DNA from: Methylocystis parvus OBBP
Lineage (GTDB): Bacteria; Pseudomonadota; Alphaproteobacteria; Rhizobiales; Beijerinckiaceae
Assembly (NCBI RefSeq): GCF_027571405.1
Contig: NZ_CP092968.1
Span: 2,502,001-2,566,000 of the forward strand
Direction: 5' to 3'
Length of the DNA stretch: 64,000 nt
Numbering within the stretch: the first letter of the stretch is position 1; each line of letters opens with the position of its first letter. This document shows positions 30,323 to 55,059 of this stretch, piece after piece. The notes under the pieces are model-generated. The model searched no databases. It saw only the letters and a list, made by a program, of their open reading frames with translations, and had not been told where the DNA came from. Both the position numbers and the translations under genes were made by a program.

Positions 30323-30336
30323 GGTTCGGAAATTAC
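30323..30336 (-). repeat. Cargo motif copy 1
   Basis: GTAATTTCCGAACC on the minus strand, inside the loop and arms of the hairpin at 30318-30342 and 270 bases upstream of the transglutaminase start, same strand. Confidence 0.5.
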
Positions 30337-30566
30337 CTATCCGGGACGTCGAGCGCCGACTCGGCCAGAAGGGTAGAAGCATGGGGCTTGAACGAAGCGT
30401 CCATCGACCGCCTGAACGGTGGCTGCCTGGTCTTCACAGTGAGCCCGATCGAGCCTTCTGTCTTTCATGAGTCGGATAGCGCGACACAACGAGCGCCGGC
30501 ATGACGATGTTCTTTGACGTGCGGACGATAGGCATTGTCACGCGTAGCCAAAGCAGCATACTCGTG

Positions 30567-30586
30567 CTGAGTAATTTCCGAGCCTG
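30567..30586 (+). repeat. Cargo motif copy 2
   Basis: CTGAGTAATTTCCGAGCCTG, beginning 109 bases before the PRC-barrel gene start on the same strand. It matches the copy at 37211 in 18 of 20 bases. Confidence 0.6.
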
Positions 30587-30675
30587 CCGAAAACTATAAC
30601 CGACTGATACGTTCGCAAGTCATCGCAACAGTCGTAAAGAGTCGGATCGCGATGCGACACAAATGGAGTTATAGA

Positions 30676-31113
30676 ATGTCAAAGTCCCTTATTCTCATCG
30701 CTTCGGCAATGACAATTGCGGCCAGTCTTGCTCTCGCCGAAGCCCCTACGAAAATGACGATGGCGCCGGCGTCGACGACGACCACTGAATTTCTCTCGAC
30801 GATCCCCAGCAACGCGCTGCTCGTTTCCAACATCTATGACCGGAACGTCTATGATGCCGGGGAGAACAAGCTCGGCGAGATCAAGGATATCGTCATCGAT
30901 CGTTCCGGCACGATCGGCGCCGTGATCGTTTCGGTGGGCGGGTTTCTCGGCGTCGGCGACAAGGACGTGGCCGTCGCTTTTGAAGCGGTCAACATCTCCC
31001 AGCGCAACAACAAGACCTGGCTATCGATGAACACGACGAAGGCCGCGCTCATGAGTGCGACAGGATTCAAGTTTGACAAGTCGCAGGGCTTGTGGACGCT
31101 CGGGCAGAAGTAG
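30676..31113 (+). CDS. Exported PRC-barrel domain protein
   Basis: 145 residues from the ATG at 30676. A signal peptide (SLILIASAMTIAASLALA) is followed by a Thr-rich linker and a PRC-barrel at about 55-125: NRNVYD-type start, KLGEIKDIVIDRSGTIGAVIVSVGGFLG, then KDVAVAFEAVNI. PRC-barrel proteins with signal peptides are common in alphaproteobacterial stress regulons; ligand unknown. Probably monocistronic, with a cargo-motif copy upstream. Confidence 0.88.
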   Translation: MSKSLILIASAMTIAASLALAEAPTKMTMAPASTTTTEFLSTIPSNALLVSNIYDRNVYDAGENKLGEIKDIVIDRSGTIGAVIVSVGGFLGVGDKDVAVAFEAVNISQRNNKTWLSMNTTKAALMSATGFKFDKSQGLWTLGQK

Positions 31114-31321
31114 CCTTGGGCTGCGTCCGCCGCCTTGCCTCCCCCAAGTCGCAAGATGGCGGACGTCTCCTGTCGATACAAAGCAGACCGCAGCGAGGAA
31201 ATCGGCGCCGTTTCGATCCTAAGGCGTCACGACGCGCCTGAAATCCTACAACCAGCGGAAAGCGGCCGGATGGCGTTGCCGACATAGGCTTTGTCGCGGA
31301 TATCAAACGGAGGGTGTCTGG

Positions 31322-31888: not shown

Positions 31889-31920
31889 AATCGCCAAAAC
31901 AGCCGCCGAGAGAATTGTCG

Positions 31921-32622: not shown

Positions 32623-32720
32623 GGGCATGCGCAGTCGCTGAAGAGGCGCCACTCGTTTAACATTGCATGGCAGGAGCGCTCGACATCCAAAGCATCCTAT
32701 CCAGAAGACGTCTGTGCAAA

Positions 32721-35700
32721 CTAACTTTTCGACGTCGCCGCAAGCGCCAGGCGAGCCAATGCCGGAAGAGATTTAGCGCCCATCCTCTTCATGATTGAAG
32801 CCCGATGATTCTCGACGGTGCGTTGGCTAATGCCGAGGTCAACGGCGATATTTTTGCTGGGGTGCCCGGCGAGAACCAAATCCATGATTTCGCGCTGTCG
32901 TGGCGTCAGCCCGGCCACGTGAGCCGCGGCGGCCTCATGCCACGCCGACAATTCATTCGCATCGTGCCCATGTTCAAGCGCGCGCGTGACGCAGGCAAGC
33001 AGATCGTCGCCGCTGATCGGCTTCTCGACGAAATCAAAGGCTCCGGCCTTCATTGCGTCGACGGCCATCGTCACGTCGGCCGCGCCGGTGATCATAATGA
33101 CCGACAAATGGCCTCCGCCGTCTTTTAGGCGTTGCAACAGGTCGAGCCCGTTCATTCCGGGAAGGTAGGCGTCCAGCAGAAGGCAGCCGCGTCGCTCCGG
33201 GCGATACTCTTCGAGGAAACGCTCACAGGATTCGAAATCCCTGACCTCCCATCCATTGTCCTCGAGCACGTCCCGCAGCGTCTCGCGAAGACGCGTGTCG
33301 TCGTCGACGACGAAAATGATGGGTCGTTCATCATCTGCACTTGCTTCGACCAGGCGCGGCGGGAGGGCAGGCGCCGGCTTGTCGAAAGAGGCGTCGGCGA
33401 GCAGTCGCCGAGTTTCCTGCACCAACTGGCCAGGGTCCACAGGCTTGGTGAGCTGAACGCAATCCTGACGCGCGATGGTTTTCAAAACATTCGTCGAGAT
33501 ATCGCCCGTCAGAATGATAATCGGGATCTGGCGCTGAAGTCTGGTTCGAACGCTTCCCGCGACTTCGAGCCCATTCATGCCGCCTGGAAGATTGTAGTCC
33601 GCAAGAATTAGATCAGGGAGAAAGCCGTCGCGCTCAACGGAGTCGAATGCACCAATTCCGTCCGAGGCCATCGATGTGCGATAACCTTCGTCTTCGAGGA
33701 GAAGCTTGAGGAGGCCTCCGACATCCGGATCATCTTCGATGATCAGCACAGCGCCTGTCGGGGGAGCCTCTTTGGCGGCGTCGACAATCTTGCCAAGGAT
33801 ATCCGATGCTGGAAGTGGCGCGCATTCACCTGTAGGGACTGTCACCTCGATCGCGAAGACAGAGCCCTTGCCAAGTTTGGAGGTGACGTGGATTGGATGA
33901 CTAAGGAGGCCAGCCAGGCGCTGCACGATGGATAGCCCCAAGCCGAGTCCTCGCGTTCGCTCACGTGCAGCGTTGTCGATCTGATGATATTCGTCAAAAA
34001 TGGCGAGCAATTCAGCGTCCGGAATGCCGATCCCCGTATCCCAGATCTCGATGCGCAGCATTCCGTCCCGCCGTCGGCAGCCGAGCAATATCTTCCCGTC
34101 TCGGGTGTATTTGAAGGCGTTGGAGAGCAGATTGCGAATCATCTGCTCCAGCAGCGCCGGATCACTGCGCACCAAGAGCCCGCAAGAGACCACCCGGAAG
34201 GAAAGTTGCTGTGTTTGTGCGTGATATGCGAACTCCGCCCGCAATCGATGGAGAAGGTCGTTGATCGGAAAGCAGACGATTTCCGGACGCACCTTGCCGG
34301 CCTCGATCTGGTTGATGTCGAGCAGCGCGTTCAGCATGCCGGACATTGAGTGTAGCGTTTCGTCGAAGCGCGCCACCAATTTCTTCGCCTTCTCTCCTTC
34401 GACGATCTTGGCCAAGAGGCCCTGAAGAAGCACGAGGGATTGTAGCGGCTGGCGCAGATCGTGACTCGCCGCGGCGAGAAAACGCGATTTCGCCAGATTG
34501 GCCTGTTGCGCCTGACGCTTTGCAGCCTCCAGTTCCTGCTGAGAATGATGCCGTTCGGTGACATCGGAAAAAGTGATGACGACGCCTTCGATGCGATCAT
34601 CCTGGGCGCGATACGGCATGATTCGGCGGCTATACCAGGCGCCGCTCTGCGCCTTGATCTCCCGTTCAATCGGCGCCCGCTCTTGCAGCACCAATCGGGC
34701 GTCGTCGAGAAGCGCGTCGTCCGCCGCCAAAGAGCGCAGATCCGCCAGCGGCCGCCCGACGTCGCCGGGAATGACGCTGAACAGCAGCTTGGTGGTCGGC
34801 GTGAAGAAGCGGATCTTGAGGTTGGCGTCGAGGAAAAGCGTCGCCACATCCGTGCTATAGAGAACGTTTTGGAGATCGTTCGACAGGATGCGCTGGCGCT
34901 CCAATGTCTCCTGGAGCTGCGCGTTGAGCGCCGTCAACTCCTCATTGAGCGATTGCAACTCCTCCTTGGAGGTTAGCAGCTCCTCATTCGTCGACTGCAA
35001 TTCTTCGTTGACGGACAACGCCTCTTCGTTTGTCGCCTTCTGCTCGTCATTGGACGTCTCCAAATTGTGAATGGCGCCTTGAAGCTCAAGCCTCGTGGCT
35101 TCGAGCTCCTGTTCCAGCTCGGCGACTTGTGCGCTTTGTCCTGGCGCAGATTGCCTGTCCTGTCTGCGTGCGGGCGTAGGCTGATCGATGAAGCAAACCA
35201 GCAGGAGCTCTTCTCCGTCGCTCTGAACCGGCTGCGCAGCGATATTGAATGAGAACGGCTCTCCGTTTTGCTTGAGCTCGCCGCCTGAGACGACGATGCG
35301 CCGCTTCTCCTGACGAGCTCGCTGAACCGCCGACCTCAGCTTGGTGCGCACACCCTCACGCACCATCGTCAACAGGTTCTGAACAGCATGCCCCGATGCG
35401 ACCTTCAGATAGGTATCCGTCGGGCCGAGATAATAGAGACATTCGTAATTGTGATTTATCAAGACGGCGGCTGGCGCGTAGGTGTCGAGGAGCAAACGCG
35501 TACAGAGATCGGCGAGGGCGGCCGGGCGCATCCTTTCGTGTTCCTTGTCGCGGCGTTTTGGGAGCGCGGCCTCATAATTCGGTCGTATCAGATTGATAAG
35601 CTCACCCGCTCTGGTTCGACCGATGCGTCGATAGATCCGATTGGCCTTGGAGATCGGCTCAAAGCGACCGTCTACGCTACCAATCGTCTCAGCGGCCCCA

Positions 35701-37121
35701 AGGAGAACGACACCCCCTTCCCGCAATGAGAAATGGAGCAGCGCAATCACCTTCTCTTGCGCCTCCGGGCGCAAATAGATCAGAAGATTGCGACATGAAA
35801 CGAGATCGAGACGCGAGAAGGGAGGATCGGCAAGCAAATCCTGAACCGTAAAAACCACTATCGAGCGCAGCTCGGGCGTCACCCTGTAGCAATGATCCTC
35901 TCGTGTGAAAAAGCGGGATAGACGTTCCGTCGAAACGTCCTTCTCAATGGTTTCAGGGTAAATCCCCTCGCGTGCGCTAGCGACCGCGTCGGGGTCGACG
36001 TCCGAGGCGAATATTTGAAGCTTGAGACTGCGGCTTTCAGCGGCGATCCGCTCGAGGAAGAGCATGGCGAGCGAATAGGTTTCCTCACCTGTGCTACAAC
36101 CTGCAATCCATATGCGAATGTTCCGGTCAGGCGCATGGTTCCTGACGATTTCAGGGACAATCTTTTCCGCCAGCAATGCGAAGGTCCGTGGGTCACGAAA
36201 AAAGCTCGTCACATGGATGAGCAGGTCCTTTGCGAGAAGATCGAGTTCCCCGGCGTCGCGGCGCAGCAGGTCGAGATACTGCGTCATTTCGACGGCTTTA
36301 CCTGCTGACATCCCCATCCGTCGAATGATTCGGCGCTCCAATGTGCCCGGCTTGTAGAGCGTAAAATCGTGTGCGGTCTTTGTGCGCAACAGTTCGACGA
36401 TCTGCAAAAGGATGTCTGGATTTGCTGGCGAGGCTCGAGCCTCCTTGATTGGGTTTGCTAAGGCCAGCTCGTATGCGACGAGCGCTTCTCCGATCTTCGC
36501 CGCCGGAAGCACCAGGTCGACATCGCCGGTCATGATCGCGCTGCGCGGCATCCCGTCAAATCCAGCTTCCTTCGGATCTTGCACGATCACATGGCCACGG
36601 TGCTCCTTGATTGCCTTCAACCCGAGAGCGCCGTCTGCGCCGGTTCCCGAGAGAACCACGCAAACGGCCCGCGAGTCGAAATTCGTAGCAAGCGACAGCA
36701 GCAAATAGTCGAAGGGGAGGCGCGCCCCATGAGGCGCAAGCGGCTGCGAGAGGCGCAAGCCCCCCTCTATCACCGAGAGATACTTGCCTGGCGGGATCAC
36801 ATAGAGATGATTGGCCTCGATTGGCATGTGATCCGTGGCCTGCACGACCGGCATCGACGTATGCGACGAGAGCAGATCGACCATCATGCTTTCATGCGTC
36901 GGATCGAGATGCTGAATCAGGATAAGCGCCAAGCGGTCTGAAGCGGGAAGGTTGTCAAGGAAGTTCTTACAGGCGTCGAGGCCGCCCGCCGACGCGCCGA
37001 TCCCGACGACCAGAAAATCACCGGATCTGCGAGGTTTCTGTCGCTCCGAGGTGATAGGTTTTTTCGGCAGTGACTTGGCCTCCTTGCTGACATGCTTTCG
37101 ATGCGACCATCGCTTTAACAC
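32721..37121 (-). CDS. CheB-CheR-PAS-histidine kinase-REC-REC-HTH fusion protein
   Basis: 1466 residues in one frame. CheB methylesterase at 36-225 (S44 in GASAGG, H71 in QHLDP, D163 in GTGADG). CheR at 235-505 (SFFRDP, GCSTGEETYSLAM, VSCRNLLIYL). A PAS-like region near 540-645, then a coiled coil of NEELQSTNEELL repeats at 665-750, and a second PAS at 750-855. Histidine kinase with H887 in ASHDLRQPL and ATPase motifs NAFKYT, DTGIGIP and GLGLGLSIV. Receiver 1 with D1175 and receiver 2 with D1317 (FixJ-like), then a LuxR-type HTH at 1405-1460 (LTPRQREIMDLV, ISQRTVENHRASIMKRMG). It joins sensing, methylation enzymes, phosphotransfer and DNA binding in one chain. Cytosolic; no membrane segment. 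Confidence 0.95.
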   Translation of the reverse strand: MLKRWSHRKHVSKEAKSLPKKPITSERQKPRRSGDFLVVGIGASAGGLDACKNFLDNLPASDRLALILIQHLDPTHESMMVDLLSSHTSMPVVQATDHMPIEANHLYVIPPGKYLSVIEGGLRLSQPLAPHGARLPFDYLLLSLATNFDSRAVCVVLSGTGADGALGLKAIKEHRGHVIVQDPKEAGFDGMPRSAIMTGDVDLVLPAAKIGEALVAYELALANPIKEARASPANPDILLQIVELLRTKTAHDFTLYKPGTLERRIIRRMGMSAGKAVEMTQYLDLLRRDAGELDLLAKDLLIHVTSFFRDPRTFALLAEKIVPEIVRNHAPDRNIRIWIAGCSTGEETYSLAMLFLERIAAESRSLKLQIFASDVDPDAVASAREGIYPETIEKDVSTERLSRFFTREDHCYRVTPELRSIVVFTVQDLLADPPFSRLDLVSCRNLLIYLRPEAQEKVIALLHFSLREGGVVLLGAAETIGSVDGRFEPISKANRIYRRIGRTRAGELINLIRPNYEAALPKRRDKEHERMRPAALADLCTRLLLDTYAPAAVLINHNYECLYYLGPTDTYLKVASGHAVQNLLTMVREGVRTKLRSAVQRARQEKRRIVVSGGELKQNGEPFSFNIAAQPVQSDGEELLLVCFIDQPTPARRQDRQSAPGQSAQVAELEQELEATRLELQGAIHNLETSNDEQKATNEEALSVNEELQSTNEELLTSKEELQSLNEELTALNAQLQETLERQRILSNDLQNVLYSTDVATLFLDANLKIRFFTPTTKLLFSVIPGDVGRPLADLRSLAADDALLDDARLVLQERAPIEREIKAQSGAWYSRRIMPYRAQDDRIEGVVITFSDVTERHHSQQELEAAKRQAQQANLAKSRFLAAASHDLRQPLQSLVLLQGLLAKIVEGEKAKKLVARFDETLHSMSGMLNALLDINQIEAGKVRPEIVCFPINDLLHRLRAEFAYHAQTQQLSFRVVSCGLLVRSDPALLEQMIRNLLSNAFKYTRDGKILLGCRRRDGMLRIEIWDTGIGIPDAELLAIFDEYHQIDNAARERTRGLGLGLSIVQRLAGLLSHPIHVTSKLGKGSVFAIEVTVPTGECAPLPASDILGKIVDAAKEAPPTGAVLIIEDDPDVGGLLKLLLEDEGYRTSMASDGIGAFDSVERDGFLPDLILADYNLPGGMNGLEVAGSVRTRLQRQIPIIILTGDISTNVLKTIARQDCVQLTKPVDPGQLVQETRRLLADASFDKPAPALPPRLVEASADDERPIIFVVDDDTRLRETLRDVLEDNGWEVRDFESCERFLEEYRPERRGCLLLDAYLPGMNGLDLLQRLKDGGGHLSVIMITGAADVTMAVDAMKAGAFDFVEKPISGDDLLACVTRALEHGHDANELSAWHEAAAAHVAGLTPRQREIMDLVLAGHPSKNIAVDLGISQRTVENHRASIMKRMGAKSLPALARLALAATSKS

Positions 37122-37210: not shown

Positions 37211-37230
37211 CTGAGTAGGTTCCGAGCCTG
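37211..37230 (+). repeat. Cargo motif copy 3
   Basis: CTGAGTAGGTTCCGAGCCTG in the divergent region between the CheB/CheR kinase gene and the small receiver operon; it begins 161 bases before the operon's first start, on the operon's strand. Confidence 0.55.
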
Positions 37231-37644: not shown

Positions 37645-37832
37645 AGATTTGCGCGCAACATCTGGCTTCGATAGAGAGCCGGCCTGCTGATTCGCGACAT
37701 GCGGCTCCGACAAAGTTCGTTTCCCACCCTCCTATTCCATCGGAAGCGGACGAAGGCGCGCTGACTGGCCTCAACGATCGCATCGACATCTGGGTGAATG
37801 AAGGCGGAGCGGGCGGCGAGGTGGTCCGATGA
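37641..37832 (+). CDS. Small unknown protein, second gene of the receiver operon
   Basis: 63 residues, mostly polar, no recognised domain. It overlaps both neighbours by ATGA (37641-37644 and 37829-37832). The tail DRIDIWVNEGGAGGEVVR is the only ordered-looking part. It may be a short regulator or only a translation bridge to the receiver gene. Confidence 0.45.
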   Translation: MKICAQHLASIESRPADSRHAAPTKFVSHPPIPSEADEGALTGLNDRIDIWVNEGGAGGEVVR

Positions 37833-38191
37833 GTGCGCTCCGGATCCTCGTCATCGAGGACGAACCTCTGCTCGGCGAGTTGCTTGCCGAAATGCTCGAA
37901 ACGATGGGTCACGAGGTTTGCGGGGTTGAGAGCACCGAAGCGGAGGCTGTGGCTGCAGCGGCTCGCTGCAAGCCGGATTTGATGATCATCGATGCATGTC
38001 TTCGTGATGGAAGCGGCGTCTCGGCAATGGACAAAATATGCGACGCCGGCTTCATCCCTCATTTCTTTGTAAGTGGCGATATTTCGAGAATAGCAGCGTC
38101 GAGGCGTGGCGCGATTGCGGTTCAAAAGCCATTCCGTGAATCCGACCTCGCAACCGCGATTCAACTTGCGCTCGAAGCCGTGTCACCATGA
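37829..38191 (+). CDS. Stand-alone receiver-domain response regulator
   Basis: 120 residues: a single CheY-like receiver and nothing else. Acidic pocket in VIEDEPLL, phosphoacceptor Asp in LMIIDACLRDGSG, conserved Lys in AVQKPFRESDL. The switch position normally Thr/Ser is S in FFVSGDIS. Such single receivers shuttle phosphate or act on partner proteins. The large hybrid kinase next door, with two receivers of its own, is the obvious partner to test. Confidence 0.92.
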   Translation: MSALRILVIEDEPLLGELLAEMLETMGHEVCGVESTEAEAVAAAARCKPDLMIIDACLRDGSGVSAMDKICDAGFIPHFFVSGDISRIAASRRGAIAVQKPFRESDLATAIQLALEAVSP

Positions 38192-38192: not shown

Positions 38193-38206
38193 CTGAGTAA
38201 ATTCGG
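38193..38206 (+). repeat. Cargo motif copy 4 (weak)
   Basis: CTGAGTAAATTCGG starts two bases after the receiver stop. It keeps the CTGAGTA half but is imperfect in the second half. Confidence 0.3.
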
Positions 38207-38256
38207 CGCGCCTAACTCACAAAAAATTATGTGGCGCGTGAGCAGCGCCGCACTGA

Positions 38257-39163
38257 GAGCCTGTTTGAAAATTCTGTTTTTGGGGGATTCCGGTTTTGCT
38301 GCACATGTGATTCACACTTTTGATGTGGACACGCAAGCAGCGGGGCCGGATGGCCAAGATCGCCCGTAAGACCAAGCGCTACCCGTCTGATCTGACGGAT
38401 GAGGAGTGGGCGCGGATCGCGCCGCTGATGCCGAAGCCTGGGCGCCGCGGGCGTCCGCGGGAAGTCGAGTTCCGCGAAGTGATCAATGCGGTGCGCTATC
38501 TCGTGCGCTCGGGTTGCGGCTGGCGGATGCTGCCGGTGCATTTCGGTCATTGGCGAACCGTCTATGGCTGGTTTCGCGAGTTGGCGCGGCGTTTCCTGTT
38601 CCAGACGATTCATGACGTCGAGCTCATGCTCGATCGGGAGCGCCAGGGACGAGAAGCGAGCCCTTCGGCGGCGGTGATCGACAGCCAGTCGATCAAGGCC
38701 CCGCATGCGCAAACGCGGGGCTATGACGCGGGCAAGAAGATCGTCGGCCGCAAGCGCCATATCGCGGTCGACGCGGATGGGCGACTGCTGATGGTCAATC
38801 TGACGACCGCCGACATTTCCGACAGCGCCGGGGCGCAGGCGATCCTCGACGCCATCCGCAAGCGATGGCCATGGGTGAAGCATCTCTTCGCCGACGCCGC
38901 CTACGACCGACTGAAGTTGATGGACAAGGCCCGCTATCTCGAGTTCGTGCTCGAGATCATTCGTCGCCGCGATGGTCAGAAGGGTTTCGAAGTCCTGCCG
39001 CGTCGCTGGGTCGTCGAACGAACTTTCGGCTGGATGATCCGCTGGCGCAGGCTCGTAAGAGATTACGAGCGCCGCATCGACGTCTCAACAGCTATGATCC
39101 ATGTCGCCATGGGCGGCGTTCTCATCCGCCGAAATGCGCACCCGTGACTTTCCAAACAGGCTC
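38257..39163 (+). mobile_element. IS5-family insertion sequence, complete (907 bp)
   Basis: Terminal inverted repeats start GAGCCTGTTTGAAAA on the left and, read inward from the right, GAGCCTGTTTGGAAA. A 3-base target duplication TGA flanks it (38254-38256 and 39164-39166). It carries one transposase gene with no stop or frameshift, so it looks recently active. The insertion splits a copy of the cargo motif: joining the flanks restores CTGAGTAGTTTCCGAATC. Confidence 0.93.
38320..39147 (+). CDS. IS5-family transposase
   Basis: 275 residues; the ATG two codons later or at 38350 (MAKIARK) may be used. The N-terminal domain PSDLTDEEWARIAPLMP is the IS5/IS4-type helix-turn-helix. The DDE catalytic residues lie in AVIDSQSIKAP (D), ADAAYDR (D) and VVERTFGWMIRWRRL (E). 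The gene fills the element. Other copies should exist in the genome. Confidence 0.95.
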   Translation: MMWTRKQRGRMAKIARKTKRYPSDLTDEEWARIAPLMPKPGRRGRPREVEFREVINAVRYLVRSGCGWRMLPVHFGHWRTVYGWFRELARRFLFQTIHDVELMLDRERQGREASPSAAVIDSQSIKAPHAQTRGYDAGKKIVGRKRHIAVDADGRLLMVNLTTADISDSAGAQAILDAIRKRWPWVKHLFADAAYDRLKLMDKARYLEFVLEIIRRRDGQKGFEVLPRRWVVERTFGWMIRWRRLVRDYERRIDVSTAMIHVAMGGVLIRRNAHP

Positions 39164-39182
39164 TGAGTAGTTTCCGAATCTT
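39163..39182 (+). repeat. Cargo motif copy 5 (split by the IS)
   Basis: CTGAGTAGTTTCCGAATCTT, of which the first base is shared with the IS end and TGA is the target duplication. It begins 160 bases before the DUF3309 gene on the same strand. Confidence 0.6.
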
Positions 39183-39322: not shown

Positions 39323-39478
39323 ATGCTCGGAACAATCATCCTTGTGCTCCTCATCCTCATGCTTGTCGGCGCCCTTCCCAATTGGCCGCATAGTTCGAGT
39401 TGGGGCTATGCGCCATCGGGAACATTGGGCACATTGCTTATCATTGTCCTCGTACTCGTTCTTCTTGGAAAACTTTAG
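39323..39478 (+). CDS. DUF3309 small membrane protein
   Basis: 51 residues, too short for routine gene calling. It matches the DUF3309 pattern: MLGTIILVLLILMLVGALP, then WPHSSSWGYAPSG and a second hydrophobic helix ending LGKL. The WPHS-SWGY-PSG loop between two helices is diagnostic. Function unknown; in alphaproteobacteria these are often found with CsbD and DUF1328 genes under stress control. Confidence 0.9.
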   Translation: MLGTIILVLLILMLVGALPNWPHSSSWGYAPSGTLGTLLIIVLVLVLLGKL

Positions 39479-39695: not shown

Positions 39696-39715
39696 TGATG
39701 CGTGACGCCTCCATA

Positions 39716-39731
39716 GGTACATTCCGACGCT
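39716..39731 (+). repeat. Cargo motif copy 6 (weak)
   Basis: GGTACATTCCGACGCT, a distant match, 118 bases before the first CsbD gene on the same strand. Included because its spacing matches the better copies. Confidence 0.3.
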
Positions 39732-39786
39732 AGGCCGCGCCATTCCTCACCAGATACACTTCTGATGTCGAACACGTATCGACGGA

Positions 39787-39833: not shown

Positions 39834-40025
39834 ATGAACAGTACAACTGACAAGATCAAAGGCGCCGCGAATGAAGCCGCTGGCGCGGTCAAAGAGGCCG
39901 TCGGCAAGGCCGTCGGCAATCCGGGCCTCGAGATCGAGGGCGCCGGACAGAAGCTCAAGGGCGAAGCTCAAGGGGCTGTCGCCGACGCCAAGGATGCTGT
40001 GAAGAAGCTCGTCGACAAAGTCTGA
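39834..40025 (+). CDS. CsbD family stress protein (copy 1)
   Basis: 63 residues from the ATG at 39834. CsbD pattern: TDKIKGAANEAAGAVKEAVGK, then EIEGAGQKLKGEAQGAV (the two halves are the imperfect KGxxxExxGxxK repeats). CsbD proteins are abundant, disordered or helical stress proteins of unclear function. The gene at 47801 is a close paralogue. Confidence 0.93.
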   Translation: MNSTTDKIKGAANEAAGAVKEAVGKAVGNPGLEIEGAGQKLKGEAQGAVADAKDAVKKLVDKV

Positions 40026-40955: not shown

Positions 40956-42749
40956 TCAGTTGGGCAGCGACTCGCGCAATATCGTCGACGCCTTGGATAA
41001 CGCCGCCTCCCGGCCCTTCGCCGCTTCTCTGACTCTCTCAGCCGGTCTCGACTTCAGCTGGATTTCGCGGTCGTAGAAGCGTTTGTCGACATTGCGTCGT
41101 GCGGCATGAATGATGGTCGAGCGCGGCGCTTCCTCACTGAGTAATTCCATCAGACGGGTCTGGCTGAGATCGTCGAGGGCCGATGTGGGTTCATCCATGA
41201 TGATGATGTCGGGCGGCCTCAGCAACACGCGTGCGAAGCCGAGCTGTTGCTGCTCGCCGCCTGAAAGGACATCGGACCAGCTCTGTTCCTCATCCAGTCG
41301 CGATACGAGATGACCAAGCCCGCAGGCGACAAGGATCGTTTCGATCCGCGCGGCATCCGGCAGAGTGTCGTCATGAGGATAGTCGAGCGCGTCCCGCAAC
41401 GTGCCGCGGGGCATGTAGGGCTGCTGCGGCATAAACGCGATGCGGGCGTCCTTCGGACGAAGAATCCGCCCGCTGCCCCAGGGCCATAACCCGGCCATCG
41501 CGCGGATCAGCGTGCTCTTGCCGGCCCCGGACTCTCCTTTCACGAGGATTCTCTCGCCGCTCCTGATAACGGCGTCCGTGTCGGCCAGCATCTGTGTGCC
41601 GTCATGCTGCGCGATGGAGAGCCCGCACAGATGCAATGCGCTATCGTCACTGAAGGCGAGGTCAATCCTCTTGTCCTCGGCGCTGATGGCGAGCTTGTCG
41701 AGATTGTCGAAGAAGAGGTCGAGGGCCGCGACGCGCCGCGCCGAGGCGAACCAGTCTGCAAGGCGCATTGAATTGTCGGCCAACCAGTTGAGGGCCAACT
41801 GCACCTGTATAAAGGCCGCGGCGGCTTGCATAAGGTCTCCGAGCGACAACTCCCCGGCGAGATATTTGGGGGCGCCAAGCATGAGTGGGATGACTGGCGC
41901 GAGAACATTGTTGCCGCTCGACAAGAACAGCATACGGGCCTGTCGGCCGATAACTGCGATCCAGCGTGTGGCCACTTGATCGAATCTATTGTAGTGGAGC
42001 TCTCGCTCGGCGTCGTCGCCGCCGATGAGGGCGATCGTTTCCGCATTCTCGCGCGTATGCGAAAGTTCAAAACGAAAATCCGCCTCAGCCATCGCCTTCG
42101 CCTCAGCGCGCGCGACGAGCGGGCCTCCCAGAAGCAACATTCCGTACGAGGTGCATGCTGAATAGATCACGACGGCGATGACGAGATAGCCGGGGATCGT
42201 CATGCCCCACAACGTCAGCGAACCACCGATGAACCACAAAACGCTGACAAAGGAGGCCGCCATAAGAAGCGCATTCGTGACGCCGGTCGCGAAGTCGACA
42301 AAGAGCTCGATGGCGATCCGCCCATCCTCGGCGATCCGCGCTTCCGGATTATCGACAAGCCGAAGCACGCTGAGCTGATAGAAGCGGCGTCGCTCCATCC
42401 AGCGCCTGACAAGCGTTCGCGTCAGCCATTCGCGCCAGCGCAACTGAAAATTCATGCGCATTTGCAACAAGGCGACGCTCGTCATGGCGGAGAGCAAGGC
42501 AAGCGCCAACATGAGGCCGATGCTGAGAAGGATCAGATGCTGATCCTTGCTTTGCAGCGCGTCGAAGAAGAACTTGTTCCATCGGTTCACGGCGATGGCG
42601 GGGATGAGATTCAAGACGAGGCAACCGAAGAGGCCAAGCACAAACAGCGCAGCCTTTCTGCGCGTGGGGCCGGTCCAGAAGCCGAACGAGAGGTATACGA
42701 AGTGACGTAAGAGCCATGCGTCAGCCGTTGGACGACAAACTTCAGGCAT
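40956..42749 (-). CDS. SbmA/BacA-like (ABCD-type) ABC transporter, fused permease-ATPase
   Basis: 597 residues. The membrane half has six helices (about 25-330) with the SbmA/BacA-type motif RWREWLTRTLVRRWMERRRFYQL. The ATPase half has Walker A GESGAGKST, signature VLSGGEQQQLGFARVLL and Walker B IIIMDEPTSALDD. Relatives (YddA, Rv1819c) import peptides, cobalamin or very long chain fatty acids. Its neighbours are an RpoH-type sigma factor and oleate hydratase, so a lipid-related substrate is possible. Monocistronic. Confidence 0.9.
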   Translation of the reverse strand: MPEVCRPTADAWLLRHFVYLSFGFWTGPTRRKAALFVLGLFGCLVLNLIPAIAVNRWNKFFFDALQSKDQHLILLSIGLMLALALLSAMTSVALLQMRMNFQLRWREWLTRTLVRRWMERRRFYQLSVLRLVDNPEARIAEDGRIAIELFVDFATGVTNALLMAASFVSVLWFIGGSLTLWGMTIPGYLVIAVVIYSACTSYGMLLLGGPLVARAEAKAMAEADFRFELSHTRENAETIALIGGDDAERELHYNRFDQVATRWIAVIGRQARMLFLSSGNNVLAPVIPLMLGAPKYLAGELSLGDLMQAAAAFIQVQLALNWLADNSMRLADWFASARRVAALDLFFDNLDKLAISAEDKRIDLAFSDDSALHLCGLSIAQHDGTQMLADTDAVIRSGERILVKGESGAGKSTLIRAMAGLWPWGSGRILRPKDARIAFMPQQPYMPRGTLRDALDYPHDDTLPDAARIETILVACGLGHLVSRLDEEQSWSDVLSGGEQQQLGFARVLLRPPDIIIMDEPTSALDDLSQTRLMELLSEEAPRSTIIHAARRNVDKRFYDREIQLKSRPAERVREAAKGREAALSKASTILRESLPN

Positions 42750-43324
42750 ATAACGAACCTCGATGGCTGGATGCGTGGATTTTTATCAAAAGATCAACCG
42801 CGGATATTATGCTTAGGTTGCCGTCACGGGGTCGATAGGAACGCCAGTTCCGGTCTTCACGCCTCAATCCTCGAGCGCGCTCTGAATGTATGATGGCTTT
42901 GCCAACTGCCTCAAGATAAACGTGACGTTTCAACATAGCCGACGACCAAGTGTCGATTTCAGCCTCGGAATCTACTTACGGCCGCCGACCATAAGTGGAG
43001 CTCGACCGAGATCTTTCGCGAATCGAGGCGAGGGGATGTTGATTTCAGAGGAAGGGATCGTGTCCGGTCCATGGCGCGTGGGCGACCGCCGGTGCTCCAA
43101 TCAAACATGTTGCGTCGCTTGCCTCCGGAGCAGAGCGAACGCGCACTTTTGGCGTGATCGATGCTCGTCCGTCTCGCCGCGAGTGGGTAGTTTCCGGGGC
43201 TAGCGCACGATCGCACCACGGTTAGGGTCTTTTCTCGCCCATGTAACGCGCAGGAATTCCCATGACGGCACAAATCGATTTTGCCTCGGCGCGGTTACGC
43301 AAGAGCACCTAATAAGGAACAGAT
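42750..43324. promoter_or_regulatory. Divergent control region, ABC transporter / sigma factor
   Basis: 575 bases, no credible gene. It holds the cargo motif at 43183-43200 facing the sigma factor gene, and an AAGGA ribosome site seven bases before that gene's start. Confidence 0.5.
43183..43200 (+). repeat. Cargo motif copy 7
   Basis: GTGGGTAGTTTCCGGGGC, beginning 142 bases before the sigma factor start on the same strand. The GTAGTTTCCG core is exact. Confidence 0.5.
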
Positions 43325-44281
43325 ATGCTGACGCCCCTGCCCATGCTCTCTCCCGAAGGCGGACTCACGCGCTATCTGCGTGAGATCCGCCAACTCCCCA
43401 TGCTCGAGTTCGCGGAAGAACAGACGTTGGCGCAACGGTGGCGTGAGCGGAAGGATTCGCAGGCCGCGAGCGCGCTCGTTAGCTCGCACCTGCGCCTCGT
43501 CGTCAAAATCGCGATGGGCTATCGCGGTAATGGTCTGCCAATCGGAGAGCTGATCTCAGAGGGCAATCTCGGCCTGATGCAAGCCGTCGCCCGATTTGAA
43601 CCGGAACGCGGTTTTCGCCTCTCAACGTACGCGCGCTGGTGGATCCGGGCGTCGATTCAACAATATGTCCTGAGATCCTGGTCTATCGTAAGGATAGGCT
43701 CTAGCTCGAACAGCAAGAAGCTTTTCTTCAATCTCCGTCGGGTCAAGAGCTGCCTTTCGGCTTATGAAGATGGTGACCTCAAGCCGGAGCATGTCGCAAT
43801 GATCGCCATCCGACTTGGCGTTCGTCAGAAGGACGTCATCGAGATGAACCGGCGTCTGGGAGGCGATGCTTCGCTTAATGCGCCAATTTCCGAACGGGAG
43901 GAAGGAGGCGGGGAAAGGCAAGACTGGCTTGTCGACGCCCGGGATAATCAGGAGAAGGTGCTCGTCGACCACGAAGAGGGCGACCACCGTAAAATCTCGC
44001 TGCGGAACGCGCTTGAGGTGCTGAATCCGCGGGAGCGTCGAATCCTGGAAGCCCGCAGGCTGACAGATCTACCTCTTACGCTTGCAATATTAGCCGCCGA
44101 ATTTGGGGTCTCGCGGGAGAGGGTCCGCCAGATTGAGGTGCGAGCTTTTGGGAAAGTTCAGCGGGAAATTCGCGCTCTCGTTGCTCGTATCGAGGAACCG
44201 AAAGCGGATCTCCGAAACGCGGTCTTCATTCCAGACGTGTACGCGATCCACAAGAATCCCCAAAGTCCGATCCGGCACTAA
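43325..44281 (+). CDS. RpoH-type (sigma-32) RNA polymerase sigma factor
   Basis: 318 residues. Region 1.2/2 starts GLTRYLREIRQLPMLEFAEEQ; region 2.4 reads FRLSTYARWWIRASIQQYVLRSWSIV; the RpoH box is seen as SKKLFFNLRRVKSCL. Region 4 has LNPRERRILEARRL and FGVSRERVRQIEVRAFGKVQ. A C-terminal extension of about 30 residues (after ALVARIEEP) is unusual. An extra RpoH on mobile cargo could switch on heat-shock genes or the cargo itself. Whether the host RpoH regulon overlaps is untested. Confidence 0.93.
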   Translation: MLTPLPMLSPEGGLTRYLREIRQLPMLEFAEEQTLAQRWRERKDSQAASALVSSHLRLVVKIAMGYRGNGLPIGELISEGNLGLMQAVARFEPERGFRLSTYARWWIRASIQQYVLRSWSIVRIGSSSNSKKLFFNLRRVKSCLSAYEDGDLKPEHVAMIAIRLGVRQKDVIEMNRRLGGDASLNAPISEREEGGGERQDWLVDARDNQEKVLVDHEEGDHRKISLRNALEVLNPRERRILEARRLTDLPLTLAILAAEFGVSRERVRQIEVRAFGKVQREIRALVARIEEPKADLRNAVFIPDVYAIHKNPQSPIRH

Positions 44282-44556: not shown

Positions 44557-46188
44557 TCATGAATGAAAGTCGTGCAGCGCCATAAACGCCGCAAAGAGGA
44601 CGCGTGGATCGAACTTCCCCTTGTAGACTGGCGGCGGCTCCCTGTTCAGGCCAAGTCGTGTGTAGACCGCGGCCTGCGCCGATCGAATCGAATATTCGAC
44701 CGTGAACACGACATCATCCGGCAGTTCGCAAAACTGGCCGATGAAGGCGAAGTTCTTGGCGCCGTTTGGAACGACTTGCGGTCTATCGCCTCGCTCACGC
44801 CGAAGAAACTGACTCGTGACGAATGGCATCATGCAAGGTATGCAATTCGCGGTCTCAAGGATCTTGGCGGCTTCCGTCCCGATGTTCAAATGGCCGAGCA
44901 ATTCGATCATGATTTCCCTGCCAGTGCATGCTGCCATGGGCTTGTCTACAAAGTTGCCTGGTTCGTCGAGACAGAGCCCGTAGCCCCAGAAAACGCTGAC
45001 GCCCTCTGGTTGATCGATGAAGTGGGGCTGAAAGGGTACAACGAAAGAGAGCACCCAGTTCGATTTGGGGAAAGTGACGAGCCCGCCTTCGCCAGGGGTG
45101 TTGCCGGTGGCGTCCCGGACAAGGCGGAGAAATGTCGGATCATGCAAGGTTGTCGTGAACGACTCCCATTTCGACTCTTCGATATGATCCGCAAATGCCG
45201 AGGGTCGTCCGAAATGGGGACGGCCTGCTGCCATTTTCTCCCAAAGCGTCCACGCGCCGCCGTCCTTCTTGCCCCTGATTTCAGGCGCCGCCTCCATACC
45301 CCCGAGGCTCGACGCCTCGGTCATAGAGCCAAGCGTGACAAAGACCCAGTCGGATGCGTCGATCGCGAGCTTCTCTAAGCTGCCACTCCGGACAACGGAA
45401 ATTTCTGTGATGAGCGTATCATCGCCTTGATCGTAAAATGCGATGTCCGTTACCTGAGCATTCAATTCGAAGACGACGCCTCGGTCTTCAAGCCACTTTT
45501 GCAGCGGTCTCACAAGGGAGTCATATTGGTTGTAGACGGTGCGCATGATCCCCGTCAGTCGATCGAACCCGTCGACCATATGCGCAAATCGTTCGAGATA
45601 GCGTTTGAATTCGATGGCGCTATGCCATGGCTGAAAGGCAAAGGTCGTGCGCCACATGACCCAGAAATTTGTCTTGAAGAACGTCGGATCGAAGATATCC
45701 TCGATGCTGGCCGCCCCAAGCATGGCCTCAGGCTCCAACACTAGGCGCTCGATCGTGAGAATGTGATTCTCGCTGAGTCCGAACTCCGGAGCCGTTTTGC
45801 GGCGACCATCGTGCATCAGACGCGACTTGGATGAGGTTTTTATCGTCTCGTTCCAATCGAATATCTCTTGTGTGACCGTTCGTTCGTTGTCGAGAGTTGG
45901 GATGGAGGCGAAGAGATCGAAGGTGCAAACGTATTTACTCTCGAGCATTCGACCGCCCCGAAGGACGTATCCTTCCACTGCCGAACCGGAGCCGTCGAGA
46001 CTTCCGCCGATCACATCAAGTTCTTCCAGGATCGTTATACGATGGCCGCGAACGTCGCCATCCCGAATAAGGAAGGCAGCCGCCGCTAATGACGCAATCC
46101 CGCCGCCAACCAGATAGATATTTCGTTCGCTCTGAATGTAGGTTGCCTGTGAGGCTGCGAGATCGGAGAACTGAGGTTCCATCGCCAT
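44557..46188 (-). CDS. Oleate hydratase (FAD-dependent fatty acid hydratase)
   Basis: 543 residues from the ATG at 46188, which has GGGAG seven bases upstream; the longer frame to 46368 is unlikely. The N-terminal FAD site is YLVGGGIASLAAAAFLIRDG, with EELDVIGGSLDG next. Further family stretches are GGRMLESKYVCTFDL, RTTFAFQPWHSAIEFKRYL and IGQFCELPDDVVFTVEYSIR. The enzyme adds water to cis-9 double bonds of free unsaturated fatty acids. It is somewhat shorter at the C-terminus than firmicute versions. Likely a membrane or fatty-acid stress function here. Confidence 0.93.
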   Translation of the reverse strand: MAMEPQFSDLAASQATYIQSERNIYLVGGGIASLAAAAFLIRDGDVRGHRITILEELDVIGGSLDGSGSAVEGYVLRGGRMLESKYVCTFDLFASIPTLDNERTVTQEIFDWNETIKTSSKSRLMHDGRRKTAPEFGLSENHILTIERLVLEPEAMLGAASIEDIFDPTFFKTNFWVMWRTTFAFQPWHSAIEFKRYLERFAHMVDGFDRLTGIMRTVYNQYDSLVRPLQKWLEDRGVVFELNAQVTDIAFYDQGDDTLITEISVVRSGSLEKLAIDASDWVFVTLGSMTEASSLGGMEAAPEIRGKKDGGAWTLWEKMAAGRPHFGRPSAFADHIEESKWESFTTTLHDPTFLRLVRDATGNTPGEGGLVTFPKSNWVLSFVVPFQPHFIDQPEGVSVFWGYGLCLDEPGNFVDKPMAACTGREIMIELLGHLNIGTEAAKILETANCIPCMMPFVTSQFLRRERGDRPQVVPNGAKNFAFIGQFCELPDDVVFTVEYSIRSAQAAVYTRLGLNREPPPVYKGKFDPRVLFAAFMALHDFHS

Positions 46189-46515
46189 TTTGAACTCCCG
46201 ACTTGGGTAAGTGTGGGCAGCGTCGTTGCAAAAATGCGGTGGCGCTTGTGGTTCATTTTGTATCGTTGCGGCGCAGACGGAGTCCTGCACCGCTTTACAG
46301 GCGGCGGCTGGGCTTTTCCGCACAGGAGAGGGCAAGCGAACGACGTCTTTCAAGAGGCCGCGGTGCACTCACTTGTTGCACTTGAGTCGCTGAGGGTCGC
46401 GTTCGCCTGTGGTGTCGTGGCTTCAGGCGCAAAGGTAGAGACAAAATTTCACGTGACGCCAGAATCGGAAACTACGCAGACGCGCCGTTGGCGGCGCTGC
46501 CCGCGGCGCCAGACA
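46189..46515. other. Upstream region of the oleate hydratase gene
   Basis: 327 bases with no supported gene. It carries the minus-strand cargo motif at 46460-46479, facing the hydratase gene. Confidence 0.5.
46460..46479 (-). repeat. Cargo motif copy 8
   Basis: CTGCGTAGTTTCCGATTCTG on the minus strand, beginning 291 bases before the oleate hydratase start, same strand. It matches the copy at 54696 in 18 of 20 bases. Confidence 0.6.
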
Positions 46516-47583: not shown

Positions 47584-47680
47584 TTGACTGGTCCATCACC
47601 GTGTGTCCTCCCGTGTCGAGGCCGCTTTACCGTGAGTCAGCCGGCGACAGATCATTTCATTGGCATACGTCATTTCGTCA

Positions 47681-47698
47681 TGGGTATTTTCCGAAGCT
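47681..47698 (+). repeat. Cargo motif copy 9
   Basis: TGGGTATTTTCCGAAGCT, beginning 120 bases before the second CsbD gene on the same strand. One base differs in the GTAGTTTCCGA core. Confidence 0.45.
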
Positions 47699-47800
47699 AT
47701 ACGATGCCTTTGCATGTCCGATAGGAATCGGCCGTCGAACAATAAGTCGACTGAGACAGTGCAGATCAAGCACCGTCATAATTTCATTCAGGAGACCACC

Positions 47801-47992
47801 ATGGGCAGCACAACGGACAAGATCAAGGGCGCCGCAAACGAAGCCGCTGGCGCGGTCAAACAGACCGTCGGCAAGGCGAGTGGCAATCCAAGCCTGGAGA
47901 TCGAGGGCGCCGGGCAGAAGCTCAAGGGCGAAGCTCAAGGAGCTGTCGGCGGCGCCAAGGAAGCTGTGAAGAAGATCATCGACAAGGACTGA
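47801..47992 (+). CDS. CsbD family stress protein (copy 2)
   Basis: 63 residues, with AGGAG eight bases before the ATG. It is a near-copy of the protein at 39834 (same length; differences cluster around residues 21-31 and 50-63). Both keep TDKIKGAANEAAGAVK and EIEGAGQKLKGEAQGAV. Probably a duplication within the cargo. Confidence 0.93.
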   Translation: MGSTTDKIKGAANEAAGAVKQTVGKASGNPSLEIEGAGQKLKGEAQGAVGGAKEAVKKIIDKD

Positions 47993-49498: not shown

Positions 49499-49522
49499 GG
49501 CACATCCTCGAGGAGATGCGTG

Positions 49523-51121: not shown

Positions 51122-51141
51122 ATGAGTAGTTTCGGAACCTC
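51122..51141 (+). repeat. Cargo motif copy 10
   Basis: ATGAGTAGTTTCGGAACCTC, one core change (C to G), 254 bases before the 51376 gene. A weaker GTGAGTAAATTGG lies just upstream at 51108. Confidence 0.5.
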
Positions 51142-51261: not shown

Positions 51262-51281
51262 CTGAGTAGATTCCACAACTG
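51262..51281 (+). repeat. Cargo motif copy 11
   Basis: CTGAGTAGATTCCACAACTG, beginning 114 bases before the 51376 gene on the same strand; the second half is diverged. Confidence 0.4.
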
Positions 51282-51375
51282 TGTCTTTCCGACAGGATGT
51301 GAAACTTAAGCTTGTGAGGAATGCGTCAAGACATCCCCAAGCGCTCGCCACGATGAGAGAGAGGGTCTCGCCCCC

Positions 51376-51645
51376 ATGCCCGGTCGGCAGGAACGCTTAA
51401 TTGTCCGGAGAACCGACAATTGTCGCTTAGGCGAACCGCCGCGCGTGCACGTATGGCTTGAGACCGCGGAATCTGCGCTTTTGCACTATGAAGCGGCCAC
51501 CCTCGCCGACGCGGTGCGCTACGAAGACGAGACGATTGCTTCCCTGACCTCTGAAAAGGACCGGCTTGATGTCGTCAGAGTGGACGAAACCTCCTGCGAG
51601 CGCTGCGAACGAAGAGCGGAGTGTTTTCTGGCTTACGATCATTAG
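51376..51645 (+). CDS. Small unknown protein with C-terminal cysteine cluster
   Basis: 89 residues, no family recognised. The first 50 residues are mixed beta/alpha in character (RVHVWLETAESALLHYEAATLADAV). The end has SCERCERRAEC, three Cys that could bind metal. Two cargo-motif copies upstream at spacings like those of firm genes raise its credit. Start choice rests only on the first ATG. Confidence 0.45.
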   Translation: MPGRQERLIVRRTDNCRLGEPPRVHVWLETAESALLHYEAATLADAVRYEDETIASLTSEKDRLDVVRVDETSCERCERRAECFLAYDH

Positions 51646-51671
51646 GCCAACGTTTTAGGAGCCCCAAAAAG

Positions 51672-51800: not shown

Positions 51801-51989
51801 GCGGGAGCTCCGACGTTCCTTCATTGGCTCACTGCGATTCTTGTCATCGGCATATTCGGAGACGAAATTCCGCGAGGTGAATGGCGGGATTTGGGGCGGG
51901 GGCGACGGCGCGGAGCGATGCGGCTCCGAGCGGAACGTGCTTCCTGAATCTTGACTACCTCAGCCTATCCCGATGGCGAAGCTCTTGGG

Positions 51990-53243: not shown

Positions 53244-53454
53244 GCCCCCTGCTCCACGCACTTATGGCCGAAATCTGATCGAGTTCGGGCGCGACTGCTC
53301 TTATTGCCCAGTGCGAAGACAGGATCGTCGTGCGTGCGGAGGAGCATTTTCAGCTTGCGATAGATGATAATGGACAAATTCTCAATTGAGGCGTTGGCGA
53401 CAGGAGCGCCTCGGTCATTGGCGCCCTATAGCTGCATAGCTGCCCGGGAGGAGG

Positions 53455-54042
53455 TTAGCGATGACAGACGCTCTCGCCCTCATCACCGATGTAGTGGCTG
53501 ACGAAGGCGCCGAACCGCCGGCGCTGCGAAGGTTCGAGGCTATCGTATAACGCGCTAGATGCGTCTGCGATTTTGCGCAAGTCGTCGGCGCGAACGTTCA
53601 AAAGATCGGCTTGCATGCGCATATCGCTGATCGCGGTCCAGTCTCGATCGCCGCGCCCGCTGTCGGCTTTGGCTTTGCCTTCCTTGTCGTCCGTTCGTTG
53701 TGCCTCCCGCATCGTGGCTGCTCGTTGCTCGCGAAGCTTGAGCATCCTGTCCGCTCGGCGTTGGGCCATGTCGTGCAACGCTTTCTGCGTAGAGTCCCAA
53801 TTCTTGTCCTGTTCAGCCGTCAATCGAAGCTCCGCCTTGAAGCGGGCGATGCGAGCGTCGGCAACATCCAGAATTTGATTGACGGTCTGTCTGCACATCT
53901 CGTCACCATCGCGTCGATCGTGTGCGAGAGCGCTAGCGGGAAGAACCGTCGCAGCGGAGAGCGTCATCATTGTCACGATGACGGCGCTTCGGACGACTCG
54001 GCGCATATGCTTCGCCGACCCGGCGCAGTGATTGTTATTCAT
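53455..54042 (-). CDS. Exported Spy/CpxP-like LTXXQ protein
   Basis: 195 residues from the ATG at 54042 (AGGAAAC upstream); the frame extends to 54087. Signal peptide about 15-44 (VVRSAVIVTMMTLSAATVLPASALA). The mature part is helical, with the LTXXQ-type stretch LRLTAEQDKNWDSTQKAL, a charged middle, and a second related stretch AISDMRMQADLLNVRADDLRKI. Family members are periplasmic chaperone-like or stress-sensing proteins. Confidence 0.8.
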   Translation of the reverse strand: MNNNHCAGSAKHMRRVVRSAVIVTMMTLSAATVLPASALAHDRRDGDEMCRQTVNQILDVADARIARFKAELRLTAEQDKNWDSTQKALHDMAQRRADRMLKLREQRAATMREAQRTDDKEGKAKADSGRGDRDWTAISDMRMQADLLNVRADDLRKIADASSALYDSLEPSQRRRFGAFVSHYIGDEGESVCHR

Positions 54043-54210
54043 GGCTTGTTTCCTGCAACCTTCAAGAATACATTTCGATCCCGCCAAGCATTCGCTGTCG
54101 AGATGAAATTGCCGTGCGTTCGTCCAAAGTCAATGCCGCTGCCGCCGGCCAAGGAGCCGGCAGCAGTCACGAAATTATACGAAAGCCGCAATCGATCTGG
54201 CGGCGCTCTA

Positions 54211-54588
54211 CTAGCAGCCCCAAACCCAACCGACGCCCGGATCCCACCGCCAGCACGAATTGCCGCCGTATCCGCCGCCATAGCCGTAGCCACCATAACC
54301 ATAGCCCGAAGCGCCTGCGATTCCTGCGCCCAGGAGACCTGCCGCGGCGCCCGCTGCGCCAACCGCTGCGCCCGGAACGCCGTAGCCGTAGCGATAGCCG
54401 CGATGGTAGTGTCTACCGTAGCCGCGTCGATAGCCGCGGTAGTGAGCCTTTTCAATCGACGTATTGAGCCCCGTGCTCGCTGGGGCGGCAACGCTCATGG
54501 GGCCGGCAAAAGCATCTGTCGGGAGGACCGCCAGTACGGTAACGGCGCACAGCCCAGCGGCAAGAGCGGATGTCACATTCGTTCGCAT
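54211..54588 (-). CDS. Secreted Gly/Tyr-rich protein
   Basis: 125 residues with AGAGG eight bases before the ATG. Signal peptide 1-28 (AAGLCAVTVLAVLPTDAFA). The middle is a RGYxxGYGRHYHRGYRYGYG tract, then a small-residue helix GAAVGAAGAAAGLLGAGIAGA, then GYGGY repeats and a two-Cys end (NSCWRWDPGVGWVWGC). Same overall plan as the protein at 40349. A strong cargo-motif copy begins 127 bases upstream on the same strand. Confidence 0.75.
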   Translation of the reverse strand: MRTNVTSALAAGLCAVTVLAVLPTDAFAGPMSVAAPASTGLNTSIEKAHYRGYRRGYGRHYHRGYRYGYGVPGAAVGAAGAAAGLLGAGIAGASGYGYGGYGYGGGYGGNSCWRWDPGVGWVWGC

Positions 54589-55059
54589 TCCGAACCTCTC
54601 TTAGAAGACTGGATTTACTCCCCGCACGTCGCGGCCGTGTTGTCCGCTGCGACTGAGTTCCAATCAGAGTATTTGTTCGGAAACGTGAAGGCGTCGAGGA
54701 TCGGAAACTACGCAGGCCGAATTCAATGACGGAAGACCGACGGGCCAATCAGTAGCTTCGCATGCGCTCGCAAATGTCGGCACGGCGCTAGGGTCTTCCG
54801 AGTTCGCGGCGTTCAACCGTCTGCGACAACTGTGTCGAGGTGCATTCGAGTTGTTCGAACGAGGAGCGTGGCCGTCTGCCCTCTTGCAATCAAGCAAAGC
54901 ACATATTGTCTGAAATGCATCGATCGATCCCGCTCCGCAACCCGGCGGGCGTACAGCCGGATGGCGCCGGCTGAGGAGTTTGGTTAAGGCTTATCCGGCA
55001 GGGTCTCGGATGCGCCTAGAAGCGTTCCTTCACGAAGCATGCAGACTATCTTTGATGAT
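54589..55059. other. Intergenic stretch between cargo and trb operon
   Basis: 471 bases with no credible gene. The cargo motif (54696-54715) and, beside it, TTTCCGAAC in 54676-54684 lie here. This is the last motif copy; none is seen in the trb operon. Confidence 0.5.
54696..54715 (-). repeat. Cargo motif copy 12
   Basis: CTGCGTAGTTTCCGATCCTC on the minus strand, beginning 127 bases before the Gly/Tyr-rich gene's start, same strand. Confidence 0.6.

Follow-up and report, generated by a model that had tools for sequence, protein, structure and literature searches.

The stretch of DNA considered here (the window) comprises 64,000 nucleotides of the Methylocystis parvus OBBP genome (contig NZ_CP092968.1, positions 2,502,001 to 2,566,000) and carries an element in which genes for a transglutaminase, a PRC-barrel protein, a sigma factor, an oleate hydratase, two CsbD-family proteins and several other products lie around the gene of a 1466-aa hybrid kinase, and in which a 20-bp motif (the box) recurs twelve times. 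The explanation that best accounts for the box, in which we have considerable confidence, is that it serves as the operator of a FixJ-type activator and as one half of a class-II promoter, with the hybrid kinase as its putative reader. A position weight matrix, built from the window sites, refined on relatives and then used for scanning, gave the following sites, each with the -10 sequence, if any, at its offset after the box (ORF, open reading frame):

30321 to 30340, minus strand: FixJ-like box before the transglutaminase gene; -10 TATGGT at offset 23
30567 to 30586, plus strand: FixJ-like box before the PRC-barrel gene; -10 TACGTT at 22
37211 to 37230, plus strand: FixJ-like box between the kinase gene and the divergent 90-aa ORF/receiver operon; -10 TACCTT at 22
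39163 to 39182, plus strand: FixJ-like box before the DUF3309 gene; exact TAnnnT absent at 21-23
39713 to 39732, plus strand: FixJ-like box before CsbD gene 1; -10 TACACT at 23
42960 to 42979, minus strand: FixJ-like box before the ABC transporter gene; -10 TATGTT at 23; kept in one relative (L057)
43183 to 43202, plus strand: FixJ-like box before the sigma-factor gene; -10 TAGGGT at 21
46460 to 46479, minus strand: FixJ-like box before the oleate hydratase gene; -10 TACCTT at 23
47680 to 47699, plus strand: FixJ-like box before CsbD gene 2; exact TAnnnT absent at 21-23, TAGGAA at 23
51122 to 51141, plus strand: FixJ-like box 5' of box 51262 and of the 89-aa Cys-cluster ORF; no -10 match
51262 to 51281, plus strand: weakest FixJ-like box (score 17.5), before the 89-aa Cys-cluster ORF; TAAGCT only, at 26
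54696 to 54715, minus strand: FixJ-like box before the Gly/Tyr-rich ORF; TACTCT only, at 25

Searched as a 20-mer with up to 3 mismatches, the motif has 6 sites in the window and none in 100 dinucleotide shuffles, and all 6 of its matches in the whole 4.53-Mb genome fall inside the 24-kb box-bearing stretch. All 9 genome copies of the exact core GTANNTTCCGANNCT belong to this element (30.3-54.7 kb of the window); with one mismatch the core matches 20 further places, 2 of them in the window, and since the reversed pattern gives 71, the one-mismatch matches elsewhere in the genome are background. The refined matrix scores the twelve sites (30321-54715) at 17.5-30.6 and the next-best window sequence at 9.0. 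The repeated motif that an earlier sequence-only reading of this DNA had reported is thus real, and its genome matches, as 20-mer with up to 3 mismatches and as exact core, are confined to the element. Most of the positions then listed stand, three being shifted by a few bases (30323 to 30321 on the minus strand, 39716 to 39713 and 47681 to 47680 on the plus strand); a supposed copy at 38193 scores below 7 on the matrix and was rejected as a member, and the box at 42960-42979 (minus strand), upstream of the ABC transporter gene (42749-40956), had been missed. All twelve boxes are clear of called genes, as had been claimed, by a rough gene caller that missed several small genes; because it missed DUF3309, transglutaminase and other window genes, its strand and distance counts are approximate. 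Measured from its 3' end, the box stands 89-141 bp before the chosen start codon in eight of the twelve cases, equivalent to the 109-161 bases counted from the 5' end by the sequence-only reading, and 210-271 bp in the other four (42960, 46460, 51122 and 30321, the last with a chosen start at 30053). The matrix scan of the window found no box at 1-28 kb or 55-64 kb and none in the trb genes (TrbI and TrbL were identified by Pfam), in agreement with the sequence-only reading for 1-28 kb and the trb genes.

The promoter geometry was derived from two sets of sites: set 1 with 199 sites, including the twelve of the window (180 of the 199 non-redundant and used for column conservation), and set 2 with 270 further non-redundant sites, chosen for downstream flanks that differ from those of set 1. 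The consensus, T2 (G/A)3 (A/G)4 G5 T6 A7 (G)8 (T/A)9 T10 T11 C12 C13 G14 A15 n n C18 T19, or T(G/A)(A/G)GTA(G)(T/A)TTCCGAnnCT in short form, is an imperfect dyad only. From 59 bases before the box to 70 after it, the 180 sites share conserved columns only at positions 21-23, which are the 3' edge of the box, and at 42-48, and the 270 sites of set 2 show the same columns; the box is directional, since conserved signal is present on one side only. A TAnnnT begins at offset 21, 22 or 23 after the box in 20, 41 and 47 sites of set 1 (108 of 199 together) and in 19, 72 and 54 sites of set 2 (145 of 270), with about 1 at each other offset, and 7 of the 12 window boxes have it at 21-23. The box ends in CTGCCG, which resembles a weak -35. 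If transcription starts 7 bases past the -10, the box centre would lie near -44, and box and -10 together look like a class-II activator promoter.

The left half of the box points to FixJ. According to one study, FixJ selects the consensus GTAGTTTCCC and GTAMGTAG in SELEX (systematic evolution of ligands by exponential enrichment), the site of S. meliloti FixJ in front of fixK is TAAGTAATTTCCCTTA, and FixJ protects -69/-44 and -57/-31 there (PMC4999443); according to another, R. palustris FixJ binds the fixK promoter, which contains GTACGTAG (PMC13327599). On the matrix, the two sequences GTAGTTTCCC and TAAGTAATTTCCCTTA reach their best scores in a common register, GTAGTTTCCC at box positions 5-14 and TAAGTAATTTCCCTTA at 2-17, and only 23 of 20,000 random 10-mers score as well as GTAGTTTCCC. 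The likeness to the FixJ box of the FixLJ systems (S. meliloti, B. japonicum, R. palustris) thus covers the left 12 bases (T-A/G-A-GTA-A/G-TTTCC), in register with the SELEX and fixK sites, and extends to the kind of REC-HTH reader; in addition the second fixK footprint quoted there (-57 to -31) is centred at -44, matching the position suggested for the box here. The systems differ in that kinase and regulator are here one protein with CheB and CheR domains, and in that the window targets are not fixK or nifA; no fixK/nifA-type regulator was present among the window targets or the 19 cluster representatives tested by Pfam (see below).

The likely reader of the box is the C-terminal helix-turn-helix (HTH) domain of the following protein:

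32721 to 37121, minus strand: 1466-aa CheB-CheR-PAS-HisKA-HATPase-REC-REC-GerE(HTH) hybrid kinase (Pfam; FixJ-like C-terminus)

The best match of its C-terminal 200 aa is FixJ (5xso, the nearest solved relative, E 6e-40). Receiver residues D7, D8 (the acid pair), D51, T79 and K101 are invariant in 20 orthologues, so the phosphorylation residues are intact, and in the helix SQRTVENHRA of the same orthologues SQRT-ENHRA is invariant and one position nearly so. FixJ itself is a separate two-domain protein with its own FixL sensor, whereas this receiver-HTH unit is fused behind CheB-CheR-PAS-kinase-REC. We favour the kinase HTH because both the box and the kinase C-terminus resemble their FixJ counterparts and because kinase and box occur in the same genomes, often as neighbours; the sequence-only reading had named this HTH and the RpoH-type factor as possible readers, and only the former is favoured. 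Its proposal of a regulon box for the element's own regulator gains support from the comparison of genomes. The N-terminal architecture is that of CheB-CheR-PAS hybrid kinases annotated as 'chemotaxis protein CheB', from which the present subgroup differs by the added REC-REC-FixJ HTH and by the accompanying boxes. A related kinase on Methylocystis bryophila plasmid p1 (L160:19986-23696; 50% identity) stops short of REC2-HTH, and the surrounding 43.7 kb yielded no box.

Across bacterial genomes, box and kinase tend to travel together. The 20-mer has a match in 42 of 199 genomes of the same family and at least two in 23, and the matches cluster. With the kinase called by its C-terminus at E<=1e-50 and the box at up to 3 mismatches, at least one box match was found in 22 of the 26 kinase-bearing genomes vs 20 of the 173 others (Fisher p 5e-14), and at least two in 17 of 26 vs 6 of 173 (Fisher p 1e-13); at the level of the class (289 genomes), a stricter pattern matched in 14 of 21 genomes with the kinase vs 5 of 268 without (p 5e-15), all these p-values treating related genomes as independent. 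A matrix scan of 40 stretches (765 kb) fetched from 20 genomes gave 187 sites at score 13 vs 1 in reversed sequence, the matrix having been trained on part of them. Among the best 80 of 499 relatives found by the kinase C-terminus, boxes at a score of at least 15 were present in 77 of 80 loci (reversed control, 1 of 80), or in 73 of 76 without the four loci that repeat set 1 (L077, L097, L124, L152), with Caballeronia, Pseudomonas and Dyella among the box-bearing loci. In 61 of the 80, the HTH is part of a frame of at least 1200 aa; a box is found at the kinase 5' region in 57 of the 73 loci long enough, and within about 400 bp past the kinase end in 31 of 76.

The genes behind the window boxes, the putative targets, are:

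29121 to 30053, minus strand: transglutaminase (Pfam scan; start as chosen)
30676 to 31113, plus strand: PRC-barrel protein (PF05239)
37829 to 38191, plus strand: single-domain receiver, behind box 37211 (Pfam scan, comparison with relatives)
39323 to 39478, plus strand: DUF3309 protein (name from relatives' annotation)
39834 to 40025, plus strand: CsbD-family protein 1 (name from relatives' annotation)
40956 to 42749, minus strand: ABC transporter ATP-binding/permease (name from relatives' annotation)
43325 to 44281, plus strand: sigma-70 family factor, called RpoH-type in the sequence-only reading (Pfam scan)
44557 to 46188, minus strand: oleate hydratase, MCRA family (Pfam scan)
47801 to 47992, plus strand: CsbD-family protein 2 (name from relatives' annotation)
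51376 to 51645, plus strand: 89-aa Cys-cluster ORF (no Pfam match)
54211 to 54588, minus strand: Gly/Tyr-rich ORF (no Pfam match)

By the rough gene caller, 187 of the 199 set 1 sites avoid the called genes, which make up 77% of the DNA, and 177 of 195 share the strand of the gene that follows. Three publicly annotated plasmid records, those of M. iwaonis, Caballeronia sp. SBC2 and Phyllobacterium sp. 628, contain 15 sites, all of them intergenic and 14 co-oriented with the next gene, the sole mis-oriented site facing the 3' end of the kinase gene; the Acidiphilium (L158) and M. bryophila (L160) records were scanned outside this count. For the 497 sites (some loci repeated) that have an ORF downstream, single-linkage clustering of the first genes gave 184 clusters, the largest being single-domain receivers (44), PRC-barrel (21) and CsbD (21), followed by a cluster of 19 with a Dps-like ferritin representative that includes the window's 90-aa ORF, YflT-type stress proteins (17), a 63-aa family of unknown kind (17), OmpA (17), BON (16), SPFH (11), LTXXQ (11), DUF3309 (11) and phosphoketolase (7). 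Pfam was run on 19 cluster representatives, 2 of which had no match, and CsbD and DUF3309 were named by similarity to annotated relatives; the 63-aa family without Pfam match (L108:10735-10926) is the chosen first ORF behind 17 sites. These target genes point to a general or starvation-type stress, and neighbouring genes in Caballeronia and Phyllobacterium point also to fermentative energy stress.

Orthologous DUF3309 and CsbD promoters keep the box while their flanks drift, and the same holds for the ABC and the sigma promoter, each compared with a single relative; the kinase-receiver promoter aligns poorly at the box among relatives. The 5' edge of box 39163 is adjoined by an IS5-type insertion sequence (IS) element (38252-39168; transposase 38350-39147, DDE domain) with 23-nt inverted ends, whose flanks CACTGA / TGAGTAG point to a duplicated TGA target, with the box undamaged; in two relatives the aligned DUF3309 promoter is without the IS5-type end. 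A tRNA-His gene (26487-26563) that lies a few kb to the left of the first boxes is a possible integration site.

Several observations weigh against the kinase HTH as reader of a FixJ-like class-II promoter. The right half of the box reads CGAnnCT vs CCCTTA in FixJ sites, and 5 of the 12 window boxes are without exact TAnnnT at 21-23. At the class level 7 of 21 kinase-bearing genomes have no match to the strict pattern, and as the reversed strict pattern matches 13 of 289 genomes once or twice, single matches can be chance. Within the family, four kinase-bearing genomes (G071, G101, G125, G179) lack a match at up to 3 mismatches; a looser pattern matches them 1-4 times, on the kinase contig in three, no more than in the reversed control except in G071, so that in these four only the position of some loose matches beside the kinase would speak for them. 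Three of the 80 loci are boxless (two are contigs below 5 kb, the third is Pseudomonas sp. TH41), and 19 gave no frame of at least 1200 aa containing the HTH (contig ends, frameshifts or other architectures). Co-occurrence could partly be linkage on one island, although boxes also stand far from the kinase in some genomes (G123).

The alternative that survives best is that the boxes are real activator boxes whose reader is a different FixJ/NarL-type regulator, one from the host chromosome, instead of the hybrid kinase, which we regard as unlikely. Three other FixJ-like regulators in this genome, at 36-42% identity, could also bind. Six family genomes without a kinase call have two box matches. 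In G050 and G154 a partial kinase lies beside the box, its reading being cut at base 1 of the contig or stopping at query residue 1058, respectively; no such partial kinase was found beside the box in G198, G165, G116 and G100. The matches in G116 look like chance, whereas the closed genome of G198 has two exact boxes and no kinase match, its boxes (L075:8951 and 10261) lying near an oleate hydratase gene, either as an orphan remnant or with another reader. Against a chromosomal reader, 26 of 31 searched genomes free of both kinase and box match have a FixJ-like match (E<=1e-20, for some covering a portion of the query), the boxes follow the hybrid kinase across genomes, and in M. bryophila, a single case, a kinase without REC2-HTH goes with the lack of boxes in the 43.7 kb read.

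It is more improbable still that the element's own sigma factor (43325) uses the boxes as its promoters. In favour of this, its gene is in the element and behind a box, a position that would also make it a target; as reader it is disfavoured on co-occurrence, a homologue being present in only 1 of 20 other genomes (within the fetched stretches), while the -10 is of the ordinary TAnnnT type and a near-invariant 20-bp box exceeds a -35 element. The rival raised by the sequence-only reading, a mobile repeat, or else an extragenic one, that has spread within the element (REP sequence, MITE or IS ends), has the many copies and the nearby IS elements in its favour. It is hardly tenable and was rejected, as no flank columns are conserved outside positions 1-23 and 42-48, 14 of the 15 annotated sites are co-oriented with the next gene, and orthologous promoters keep the box in drifting flanks. 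Acidiphilium cryptum pACRY01 has two identical boxes among IS elements (L158:1509 and 28832), and there the IS may carry the box along.

With the hybrid kinase as reader, a signal sensed by the N-terminal part would lead to kinase autophosphorylation, and phosphate would be passed in cis to the second receiver. By analogy with FixJ, the HTH would then dimerize on the box, centred about -44 and adjoining a poor -35, and recruit ordinary sigma-70 type RNA polymerase (class-II activation). The single-domain receiver, itself switched on, may drain phosphate as feedback, and the cascade would continue through sigma factor 43325 as a downstream target.

The EcfG/PhyR general stress response of Alphaproteobacteria has target genes similar in kind to those behind the boxes, and its promoter consensus is GGAAC-N16/17-CGTT. 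The present system differs in its activator type, and no GGAAC or CGTT columns occur at a fixed distance from the box in the 180 and 270 aligned promoters, an alignment in which a site at variable distance would stay invisible. A cluster behind 5 sites encodes ECF (extracytoplasmic function) sigma factors with similarity to the PhyR sigma domain, and one such gene (L052:1122-1775) is a possible link to the EcfG response. The lxa low-oxygen locus of Burkholderia cenocepacia is, to go by paper titles, alike in its clustered stress genes with universal stress proteins; one paper weighs FixK/FixLJ homologues as possible regulators, and the word 'motif' is absent from it. Among the literature matches listed (titles and abstract starts), no paper deals with this regulon or hybrid.

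The box and the DNA-binding domain are of a known kind (FixJ); what appears to be new is the one-protein architecture with its own mobile stress regulon. The analysis provides a parts list of this regulon, comprising the reader, the operator, the promoter spacing and about 500 predicted sites (duplicates included), on chromosomes and plasmids and in records named as Alpha-, Beta- and Gammaproteobacteria. It suggests a function for proteins so far annotated only as 'chemotaxis protein CheB', and it accounts for a possible joint switch-on of many small stress genes of unknown role, with Dps-like ferritin, CsbD, PRC-barrel, BON, phosphoketolase and receiver genes standing behind the box in other hosts. 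We think it fairly probable that this is a self-contained, horizontally moving general stress response of Proteobacteria, in which one giant protein would combine sensor, chemotaxis-type methylation unit, kinase, phosphorelay and activator, in which each stress gene joining the island would have the same FixJ-like class-II promoter, and which would run parallel to EcfG/PhyR and could feed into it via box-driven sigma factors.

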